From assembly GCF_030523955.1 (NCBI RefSeq), contig NZ_JAUNHL010000008.1:1-59224 (forward strand): a DNA stretch of 59,224 nucleotides, given 5' to 3'. The DNA is from Neisseria sp. Its GTDB lineage: Bacteria; Pseudomonadota; Gammaproteobacteria; Burkholderiales; Neisseriaceae. Numbering within the stretch: position 1 is the first letter of the stretch; each line of letters opens with the position of its first letter. The notes under the pieces were generated by a model, which saw only the letters and a program-made list of their open reading frames with translations, was not told the DNA's origin and did no database searches. The translations under genes were made by a program, and so were the position numbers. Shown here one piece after another: positions 39,276 through 45,088 of the stretch.

Positions 39276-40076
39276 TTAAGGAATGGTTTTCTTTTGTAAG
39301 GGAATCGCGCTGAAACCATCCAACGGCAGATAGCCGACAAAATCGGCGTTGCGGTTGAGTAATACCACCCAATCTCGATTGCGCTCGTTGGTAAACGGCA
39401 AAAAGCCGAGTTGTTCCGCCGGCAGGCCGGTTTGGCTGATTGTTTTATCAATCATGTTTTTTTGCTGCGGATACGCTTGGCTTAATCGGGAAACGGGATG
39501 CATCGCGGTGGTAATGGCTGCTCGCACCGCCGGGTTGTCGGCTTGCCAGCGCGAGGGTAGGGTATTGGTTTCGATGCCTTTCATCATCAGATCGATATCG
39601 CGGCTTTTTTCCGCATCGGTTTTCGGCTCGGGCAGATAAACGCGTTCGACGCCCGACCAAGAAAGCGGTGCGTCGGCCTCCTGGTCCGGAATCTGGGCGG
39701 CGGTAACGACTACGAAGCGGTCTTTTTCAAACATCACGGCTACCGGGCGCGCCAGCGAAACGGTGTGAAGCCCGTAGAGCAGGGCGGCCAGTTGGATGGT
39801 GAAAATCAGCGAGAAATCGGTCCACATTGCGCGGCGGCTTTTGTTCGGGCTGGCCAGCACCGCCATTAAAAGCGGGCCGCACACCACATCGATGCCGACC
39901 ACCATCCAATAAAGATCCAGCCCGCCTATCATTTGATCGTAAGGATAGGGATACCAGAATTTGAAAACGACCAAGGCCATCAGCGCGGCCACCAGCACGC
40001 TCAGGCCAAGGTGGGCGCCGGCCAGTTTCAGCGCAAATTTCCAGCGAGGAATGCCCGCAGTAAGATTTTTTTCCAT
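39276..40076 (-). CDS. TfpX/TfpZ family type IV pilin accessory protein
   Basis: 266 residues with three or four N-terminal membrane helices (LGLSVLVAALMALVVFKFWYP, GGLDLYWMVVGIDVVCGPLL, SLIFTIQLAALLYGLHTVSLARP), then a soluble domain from about residue 115 starting VMFEKDRFVVVTAAQIP. This layout is that of TfpX/TfpZ, inner-membrane proteins that help particular pilins assemble or stay stable in Pseudomonas and Neisseriaceae. It lies 3 kb from the pilin genes on the other strand, with metal and polyphosphate genes between. Confidence 0.85.
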   Translation of the reverse strand: MEKNLTAGIPRWKFALKLAGAHLGLSVLVAALMALVVFKFWYPYPYDQMIGGLDLYWMVVGIDVVCGPLLMAVLASPNKSRRAMWTDFSLIFTIQLAALLYGLHTVSLARPVAVMFEKDRFVVVTAAQIPDQEADAPLSWSGVERVYLPEPKTDAEKSRDIDLMMKGIETNTLPSRWQADNPAVRAAITTAMHPVSRLSQAYPQQKNMIDKTISQTGLPAEQLGFLPFTNERNRDWVVLLNRNADFVGYLPLDGFSAIPLQKKTIP

Positions 40077-42984: not shown

Positions 42985-43000
42985 TGGCACGCAGATTGCT
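42985..43000 (+). promoter_or_regulatory. Sigma54 (-24/-12) promoter of pilE
   Basis: TGGCACGCAGATTGCT fits TGGCAC-N5-TTGC(A/T) exactly. Transcription should start near 43012, giving a leader of about 160 nt. Confidence 0.75.
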
Positions 43001-43173: not shown

Positions 43174-43605
43174 ATGAAAGCAATCCAAAAAGGTTTCACC
43201 CTGATCGAGTTGATGATCGTAGTTGCCATTATCGGTATCCTGGCCGCCATCGCCCTGCCGGCTTACCAAGACTACACTGCTCGTGCGCAAATGTCTGAAG
43301 CCTTAACTCTGGCTGACGGCCAAAAAGGTGCGGTAACCGAATACTATGCAGACAAAGGTGTGTTCCCGATTAGCAATACTTCTGCTGGCATTGCAGCTGC
43401 AACCGATATTAGCGGTAAATATGTAGCGCAGGTAGCGGTAGGTACTAGTGGTGTGATTACGGCTACCATGAAGGCTTCACAAGTTGCTGCCGGTATTACA
43501 AGCACTACCTTGTCTTTGACTCCGACTGCTTCATCAGGTGCAGTACAATGGGCTTGTACATCTAGCGCTCAAAACAAATATGTTCCAGCAGCTTGCCGTC
43601 CCTAA
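43174..43605 (+). CDS. pilE: Type IV pilin, major pilin candidate
   Basis: 143-residue prepilin. Seven-residue basic leader (MKAIQKG) cut by PilD before Phe; Glu5 of the mature protein is present ([20 protein letters not shown]). A hydrophobic alpha1 helix of about 25 residues follows, then an alternating globular domain rich in Ala, Thr and Gly. The disulfide-bonded region is Cys128-Cys141 ([18 protein letters not shown]). Short for a neisserial pilin but normal for group I. RBS CGGAG is 11 nt from ATG. Preceded by a sigma54 promoter and followed by its own terminator. N-terminus almost identical to the next pilin gene. Confidence 0.93.
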
Positions 43606-43642
43606 TTCTAGCTTAGGCTAAAGGATTTAGCTGAATAGTCTT

Positions 43643-43675
43643 GAAGCGTACCTTTCAGCAAGAGGGGTACGCTTC
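43643..43675 (+). terminator. Terminator after first pilin gene
   Basis: GAAGCGTACC and GGTACGCTTC with a 13-base loop, then TTGTATTTAT. Confidence 0.75.
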
Positions 43676-43736
43676 TTGTATTTATAAAATACTTTAATTT
43701 TCAGAGATATATTTTTATAGCATAATTGTAAAAAAA

Positions 43737-43746
43737 GGGGGGGGGG
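43737..43746 (+). repeat. Ten-G homopolymer directly before second pilin ATG
   Basis: A7 then G10 ending at the base before ATG 43747. An in-frame TAA at 43729 shows the tract is not translated as part of the pilin. It occupies the ribosome binding site position. Confidence 0.9.
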
Positions 43747-44190
43747 ATGCAAAAGACCCTACAAAAAGGCTTTACTTTGATCGAATTGATGATTGTAGTA
43801 GCCATTATCGGTATTCTGGCGGCAATCGCATTGCCGATGTACGATAACTATGCGGCCAGAGCACAAGCAAGCGAAGCTTTAATTTTCGCTAGCGCGATTA
43901 AAATGGATGTCAGTACCACTTATTTTGGCCAAGGCTGGTCGCCTGTAGGCAACTATGCCAGCGCCAGCAGCCCTTATGGCCGTTATGTACAATCGGCTGC
44001 GGTAAACGCTTCTGGCGTGATTACTGTAACTATGAATAACAATGCTAACCGCTTGATCCAGGGTAAAACGCTGACTTTGGTACCTACGGTTGCCAGTAAT
44101 GGTGTAGCTGAAACCGTTATTCAATGGGATTGCGATTCTTCCGCTGCCAACTCTATTCCGCGAAACTTCCTGCCTTCTCCTTGCCGTTAA
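43747..44190 (+). CDS. Second type IV pilin, translation controlled by poly-G tract
   Basis: 147-residue prepilin. Leader of eight residues (MQKTLQKG) before Phe, then [20 protein letters not shown] identical to the first pilin, with Glu5. The globular part differs: [19 protein letters not shown], then Cys129 and Cys146 ([14 protein letters not shown]). It is a divergent paralogue, not a simple duplicate or a silent pilS cassette, because it has its own ATG and stop. No AGGAG-type ribosome binding site exists except the G10 run touching ATG. It has its own terminator at 44236. It could be an alternative major pilin or a minor pilin. Confidence 0.9.
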
Positions 44191-44235
44191 TCGGCCGAAC
44201 AGCCTATTTTATCGCGAAGAGTGGTTTTCGATTCC

Positions 44236-44277
44236 TGCATCCTTTACATTAACGGATAAGCAGGATGCATATTTTTT
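44236..44277 (+). terminator. Terminator after second pilin gene
   Basis: TGCATCCT and AGGATGCA enclose 18 bases, followed by ATTTTTT. Confidence 0.7.
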
Positions 44278-44482
44278 GCCTGGATTTTGCCCTTGAAGCA
44301 ATGCTTGCCATAATCAAAAGGCGTAAAAGTTGGGCGGTATTCAGGCAGGCAATAGTAATGAAGATGAATGTAGTATAGTTGTAACAATTTTTGCTGGAAA
44401 AAATTATAAAAACAGATCAAATTACATTTTAATATTTATCTATTGATAAAATGATCTGGATCAATATTGTTAGGGATAAATC

Positions 44483-45088
44483 GTGAAAACTCAGAAAGAA
44501 TTGCCGGATAGTCTGGCATTGGTGCTGATTATCTTCGTGGTAATCGGTACCTTATCTTATTTTGTCTTCAACCATTGGCAGCGGGTACAAGCCATCGAAA
44601 ATACCGCACAGCGGGTTAATGCCGAGCAGGTAGCCGCTAAAATGGCTAAAGAGCGTGAAGATCTGCGTGCGGTTATGAATGGCGAAAAAAGACTGGAAGA
44701 TTTGGATAAAGCAGCATCGGCAACCAATGAGGAAGGTATACAAAAAGTCGCGCATTCTGTAGACGAGCAGGAAACGGTAGCCCCTGAAGCTAAGCCCGAA
44801 GTGGCAGAAGCGGTAAAAGAGGAGGCAAAGCCCGTAAAAAAGCCGGCAGCATCGGCAGCAGACCAAGTTAAAGCGGAACTTGGGCCGGTTATCATAAAAA
44901 CACCCGCGCCACCTGTCGCATCATCGGAGGGGATAGCAGGGGGAATCAATCAATACAGTTGCAGACAAAAGCAGCAATGTTCTCAAATGAAATCTTGCGC
45001 AGAAGCGAAATTCTATGCCAAGCAATGCAGTAACACACAAATCAAGCCGGATGAAAACGGCAAAGTATGCCCTGAGTTGTGCGGTTAA
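44483..45088 (+). CDS. Membrane-anchored protein with Excalibur-like cysteine domain
   Basis: 201 residues from GTG 44483, with AGGGA upstream. One membrane helix at about 11-31 (LALVLIIFVVIGTLSYFVFNHW). A charged, Ala/Pro/Glu-rich spacer (about 35-155) has repeated EAKPEVAEAVKEEAKPVKKP-type sequence. The C-terminal domain (about 157-201) has six cysteines: YSCRQKQQCSQMKSCAEAKF, then KQCSNTQ and VCPELCG. Spacing matches the Excalibur family (YxC-x6-C-x5-C-x-EA-x4-Lxx-C), but the Ca2+ loop DxDxDGxPCE is replaced by PDENGKVCPELC. It follows two pilin genes and may belong to the pilus system; unproven. AT-rich. Confidence 0.75.
   Translation: MKTQKELPDSLALVLIIFVVIGTLSYFVFNHWQRVQAIENTAQRVNAEQVAAKMAKEREDLRAVMNGEKRLEDLDKAASATNEEGIQKVAHSVDEQETVAPEAKPEVAEAVKEEAKPVKKPAASAADQVKAELGPVIIKTPAPPVASSEGIAGGINQYSCRQKQQCSQMKSCAEAKFYAKQCSNTQIKPDENGKVCPELCG

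Follow-up and report, generated by a model that had tools for sequence, protein, structure and literature searches.

Repeat variation in the gonococcus has been surveyed as transcriptional (acting in the promoter), translational (by frame-shift) or C-terminal (PMC5320596). Here we analyze a run of ten G residues, the G10 tract, which immediately precedes the ATG of the downstream member of a tandem pair of type IV pilin genes in a Neisseria sp. contig (NZ_JAUNHL010000008.1, assembly GCF_030523955.1; 59,224 nucleotides (nt), the whole of which is referred to as the window). The best explanation, to which we assign a probability of about one half, is that the G10 tract and the seven A residues preceding it (A7-G10) are the ribosome-binding site of this gene, here named pilE2, and that slippage would grade pilin translation via the spacer before the ATG. 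Among the described systems, frame-shift variation of the pilC type involves a poly-G of similar length in a pilus-related gene, and promoter-spacer variation of the fetA type involves a homopolymer outside the open reading frame (ORF), for which graded expression is expected (PMC5320596). By contrast, the pilE2 tract is untranslated in all frames and does not lie between the -35 and -10 elements of a promoter.

The G tract of uspA1 in Moraxella catarrhalis is located some distance from the ATG. It lies upstream of the ORF of a surface adhesin, and its length is reported to give graded expression, with the variation reported at the mRNA level (PMC7302503), whereas at pilE2 the tract adjoins the ATG directly and there is no other strong anti-16S site. 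In Mycobacterium tuberculosis, a G insertion in the poly-G of the espR 5'-untranslated region is reported to change translation and is modelled to refold the leader (PMC11898584), whereas the pilE2 tract is proposed to be the ribosome site itself; espR is the closest translational precedent found. Within Neisseria, the A7 tract of class II pilE promoters is described as differing by a single base across meningococci (PMC6755734), and nspA transcription as being set by an A tract (PMC6389960), both tracts being promoter spacers. A Neisseria phasome survey calls phase-variable homopolymers at G runs of at least 9, and gives the number of poly-G tracts in commensals, N. elongata among them, as 1-7 (PMC5953494). 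Two pilin genes per genome, also termed pilE1 and pilE2, are described in the commensal N. cinerea, but excerpts of that study make no mention of a G tract or of gene order (PMC8263058). No description of a variable all-G Shine-Dalgarno site was recognized in a literature search of open-licence papers with partial coverage.

The G10 tract and the start of pilE2

The features on which the argument rests are the following.

43174..43605, + strand: first pilin gene (here named pilE1), 143 amino acids (aa), with a GGAG Shine-Dalgarno
43729..43731, + strand: in-frame TAA stop ahead of the G10 tract
43730..43736, + strand: A7 tract, of which the last two A lengthen the pairing (AAGGGGG)
43735..43741, + strand: longest-spaced strong anti-Shine-Dalgarno register, AAGGGGG pairing with CCUCCUU at -8.6 kcal/mol (computed), with a 5-nt spacer to the ATG
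43737..43746, + strand: G10 tract, proposed to serve pilE2 as both Shine-Dalgarno and spacer
43747..44190, + strand: second pilin gene (pilE2), 147 aa, intact, leader MQKTLQKG/F; PF07963, PF00114

Both pilins score above the curated cut-offs for the Pfam families N_methyl and Pilin (PF07963, PF00114). The pilE2 product has the prepilin leader with methylation motif and the pilin domain of a type IV pilin, and its nearest PDB sequences are type 4 pilins. The sequence-only reading had placed ten G, with seven A ahead, in the ribosome-site position before a pilin ATG at 43747, and these coordinates (A7 at 43730-43736, G10 at 43737-43746) are borne out. It had also taken the tract to be untranslated on account of the in-frame TAA, which is correct and extends to all three frames, with no ATG, GTG or TTG between the nearest upstream stop and the pilE2 ATG. 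Because no frame has an upstream start reading through it, the G10 tract is untranslated from any such start at any tract length, and length changes should therefore not shift the frame.

Three candidate mechanisms were rejected. Frame-shift phase variation of the pilC type is incompatible with a tract that lies outside the translated frame and has no upstream start in any frame. Promoter-spacer variation of the fetA type was rejected on position, as the tract directly adjoins the ATG instead of lying between -35 and -10; in a scan of 43500-44500, the sole + strand promoter-like site before the tract ends at 43726. Masking by RNA structure was rejected since the two window 5' regions and the 5' region of the congener G024 are not more stably folded than shuffled sequences (z 0.56 to 0.81).

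Pairing of the tract with 16S rRNA was computed using the 3' end GGATCACCTCCTTTCT, read in three members of the genus (G024, G021 and G016); this end was searched for in the draft genome to which the window belongs (G000) and not found, and the congeners' end was used. The G10 tract is the only G-rich anti-16S site within 30 nt before pilE2, as had been proposed, and by computation it pairs with the 16S 3' end at a distance workable for a Shine-Dalgarno. The computed pairing is -8.4 kcal/mol at spacers of 0-4 nt, -8.6 at 5 and -3.8 at 6, compared with -5.9 to -6.1 kcal/mol at spacers of 7-10 nt for three upstream-pilin sites scored likewise. Since every GGGGG is able to pair, the strength is almost the same in each of the registers at 0-5 nt. 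No strong register was computed further upstream than the A/G junction, where the strong register with the 5-nt spacer lies, and tract length therefore sets the maximum spacer, which equals the tract length minus five (5 nt at G10). Thus, the expectation that length would alter both the position and the strength of the site holds for position, but not for strength, which stays between -8.4 and -8.6 kcal/mol over spacers of 0-5 nt.

In the proposed mechanism, any run of five G would pair with CCUCC through one G-U wobble, giving several near-equal registers, of which only that at the 5' edge (AAGGGGG) would provide a 5-nt spacer. Slipped-strand changes during replication would be likely to alter the number of G, with each loss shortening the largest possible spacer by a base and each gain lengthening it. 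The outcome would be a graded change in pilin translation with no change of frame, a rheostat more than an on/off switch. Such a spacing-based translational rheostat is plausible, and variation of the tract may be of benefit.

Rarity of the tract and its relatives in the genus

The draft assembly of G000 (2.81 Mb, 107 contigs) contains runs of at least 9 G at 9 places, of which 8 are the end of one repeated element and the ninth is the G10 tract. The only further run of at least 8 G is a G8 on contig 28 (L044, 54960-54967), which lies within a 153-codon open stretch of membrane-protein-like sequence and is itself a candidate coding phase-variable tract. In the window, the second-longest G run is 7, and no stretch of four consecutive G occurs in -20..-1 of any of 43 other ORFs (mechanically chosen, about 120 aa or longer). 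The length of the G10 tract also reaches the threshold at which the phasome survey would call a simple-sequence-repeat contingency locus. Composition alone gives 0.10-0.16 runs of at least 10 G per window (+ strand), so the length is in itself only mildly surprising, and the case is made by length, place and relatives together. The sequence-only view that a tract serving as Shine-Dalgarno would be unusual agrees with its rarity in G000, but an all-G site is not unique to pilE2: G6-G7 sites are present at downstream pilins of four other species (G024, G021, G067 and G029).

Orthologs of the second pilin were found in 3 of 83 family genomes, the window's own included (E<=1e-36), the other two being G024 and G016, with one assembly compared per species. 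A scan of genome contigs for relatives gave a single segment of 59%, unrelated and from a Paceibacterota MAG. Tract length across the three is 10, 7 and absent: the window has G10 touching the ATG, G024 has T5-G7-ATC-ATG, and G016 has only a weak AAAGG-like site. The G024 genome is a single contig in which the same first pilin precedes the G7-bearing second pilin; the latter is 67% identical to pilE2 and has strong registers at 3-5 nt (computed). Synonymous divergence (dS) among the three orthologs is saturated; the proportions of synonymous (pS, 0.77-0.90) and nonsynonymous (pN, 0.22-0.23) differences are compatible with purifying selection. Two side observations concern the same loci. In G024 (L010), an out-of-frame ATG at -23 reads through the G7, and an effect on frame is conceivable in that species. 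In G016, the second pilin is followed by a short reading frame that by eye looks similar to, but is shorter than, the TfpX/TfpZ-like accessory gene near the window's pilins (see below).

Start sites were then surveyed across the genus. A pilin profile was used to search 46 genomes, of which the 40 that matched at E<=1e-12 were considered for start reading. The downstream pilins first read comprise 26 cases from 25 genomes, G000 having two pairs; its other tandem pair (L082, contig 85, 14300-17200) is without a G tract. Left out were G014, with three pilins, G033 and G060, for which no pair was read, and G068, whose second pilin was not located. An all-G Shine-Dalgarno site (G>=6) occurs at 5 of the 26 downstream pilins: G10 in G000, G7 in G024, and G6 in G021, G067 and G029, the last counted before a GTG that lies 15 nt upstream of its ATG and was the analyst's choice of start. 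Such a site is absent from all 38 upstream or only pilins (Fisher p 0.009) and from all 117 non-pilin ORFs (p 0.00014). When G027 and G025, added later as negatives, bring the downstream set from 26 to 28, the count is 5/28 (p 0.011 and 0.0002, respectively). Counting two G014 pilins, whose starts are without such a G run, as downstream gives 5/30 (p 0.014), and omission of the window gene, where the feature was first seen, gives 4/27 (p 0.026 against upstream or only pilins, 0.001 against ORFs). The enrichment holds against ordinary genes, and becomes marginal against upstream pilins without the window gene and G029.

Upstream pilins mostly have GGAG, and some downstream pilins are all-G or G-rich (e.g. 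L093, L084, L087, L037 and L010). The second pilin of G005 is 93% identical to that of G067 (G6) and has GGGGAGGG, a standard Shine-Dalgarno, at the same place, which suggests that the all-G and the regular site substitute for each other. Outside the G000-G024 and G067-G005 pairs, identity among the pilins that have G-rich sites is 27-46%, and the all-G site may therefore have arisen more than once.

The end of the repeated element provides a gauge of slippage. In the 15 of 16 G000 copies whose tract was read (contigs 71, 44, 34, 76, 25, 69, 59, 89, 97, 50, 104, 41 (two ends), 12 and 99), near-identical flanks enclose G6 five times, G7 twice, G9 five times and G10 three times. The element is insertion-sequence-like by appearance. 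Of the 13 copies read in G021, 12 have G5 at the same end and one has G6. The comparison mixes two variants of the element; the length differences support instability of long G runs in this lineage. In N. lactamica, G/C tracts of similar length are reported to shift, a G10 beside fetA being listed as changed to 9 and 12 (PMC6232127). By analogy, the G10 tract is likely to be length-variable, and its phase variation is likely.

Weighing the proposed spacer mechanism against its alternatives

The tract is real, untranslated, rare and rightly placed for a ribosome site, and similar sites recur in downstream pilins of the genus. Several points weigh against a graded role in translation. The G10 length is known from one assembly alone, and of the three orthologs, that of G016 lacks the tract. 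Most of the element-end lengths were read at contig ends of a draft, and the differences may in part reflect element subfamilies. The survey counts mix unrelated downstream pilins, some species being close kin and the choice of start crude, and if the window gene and G029 are both omitted, 3/26 against 0/38 upstream pilins is not significant (p 0.062), while 3/26 against 0/117 ORFs is (p 0.005). Finally, a site composed solely of G may function just as well, or just as badly, at several different lengths.

In the leading alternative, the tract serves as the Shine-Dalgarno without functioning as a switch: runs of G would be tolerated, and drift in length would have little effect, another GGGGG register being always present. 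The almost flat pairing energy across registers argues for it, as do the shorter G6-G7 versions at other downstream pilins and the weak site that G016 has instead. However, all strong registers other than the 5' edge have spacers of at most 4 nt, and as only the 5' edge exceeds this, shortening should matter. The G10 tract is, moreover, the sole run of at least 9 G outside repeated-element ends in the draft genome, and we regard an inert site as somewhat unlikely.

A transcriptional effect like that of uspA1, whose mRNA is reported to depend on the length of an upstream G tract (PMC7302503), would require the pilE2 mRNA to start beside the tract, so that length alters promoter escape, RNA polymerase slippage or mRNA level. 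The site concerned is the following.

43698..43726, + strand: weak sigma-70-like site, TTTTCA-17-CATAAT, which would place the mRNA start in or beside the A7 tract

As this site ends at 43726, 10 nt before the tract, pilE2 may be transcribed from a promoter of its own, with a very short leader; in G024, a comparable weak site lies 3 nt ahead of the G7. The promoter predictions are weak, however, with 6 sigma-70-like sites found against 2.5 expected by shuffling in 1 kb of the window (both strands) and 2 against 0.5 in G024, one of them on the gene's strand, and the tract is not between -35 and -10. We regard a transcriptional effect as improbable. Chance or a sequencing artefact is very improbable: draft homopolymer counts can be off by one, and composition does allow the 0.10-0.16 runs per window given above, but the tract is internal to a 59 kb contig and the one-contig genome G024, with the same first pilin upstream, has G7 at the same place.

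Neighbouring features and possible significance for pilin variation

Other features near the pilin pair include the following.

39276-40076, - strand: TfpX/TfpZ-like pilin accessory protein, some 3 kb ahead of the pilin pair; 169 bits against NF041437, short of its curated cut-off (200)
42985..43000, + strand: sigma-54 type -24/-12 motif (GG-N10-GC) upstream of pilE1, read by eye; motif as given in PMC6528607
43643..43675, + strand: intrinsic-terminator-like hairpin between pilE1 and pilE2; 1 found against 0.9 expected by shuffling

A sigma-54 motif is likewise described for commensal pilE (PMC6528607). The inter-pilin hairpin has a counterpart at the matching place in G024 and, by eye, in G016.

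A broader proposal, which we advance only tentatively, is that downstream pilins in the genus have more than once taken up an all-G Shine-Dalgarno whose run of G also acts as a spacer able to slip. Variation would then occur at the ribosome-binding register, and two pilins could be mixed in graded proportions within a single pilus while frame and promoter stay unchanged. As reported in the phasome survey, pilS repeat tracts are confined to meningococci and gonococci, and phase-variable alleles of pilC to the pathogens, yet its table also marks N. lactamica for the latter (PMC5953494). If true, a variable second pilin in another species would change this picture of pilS and pilC variation, and a homopolymer that is the ribosome-binding site itself would constitute a further kind of repeat variation, with graded output.
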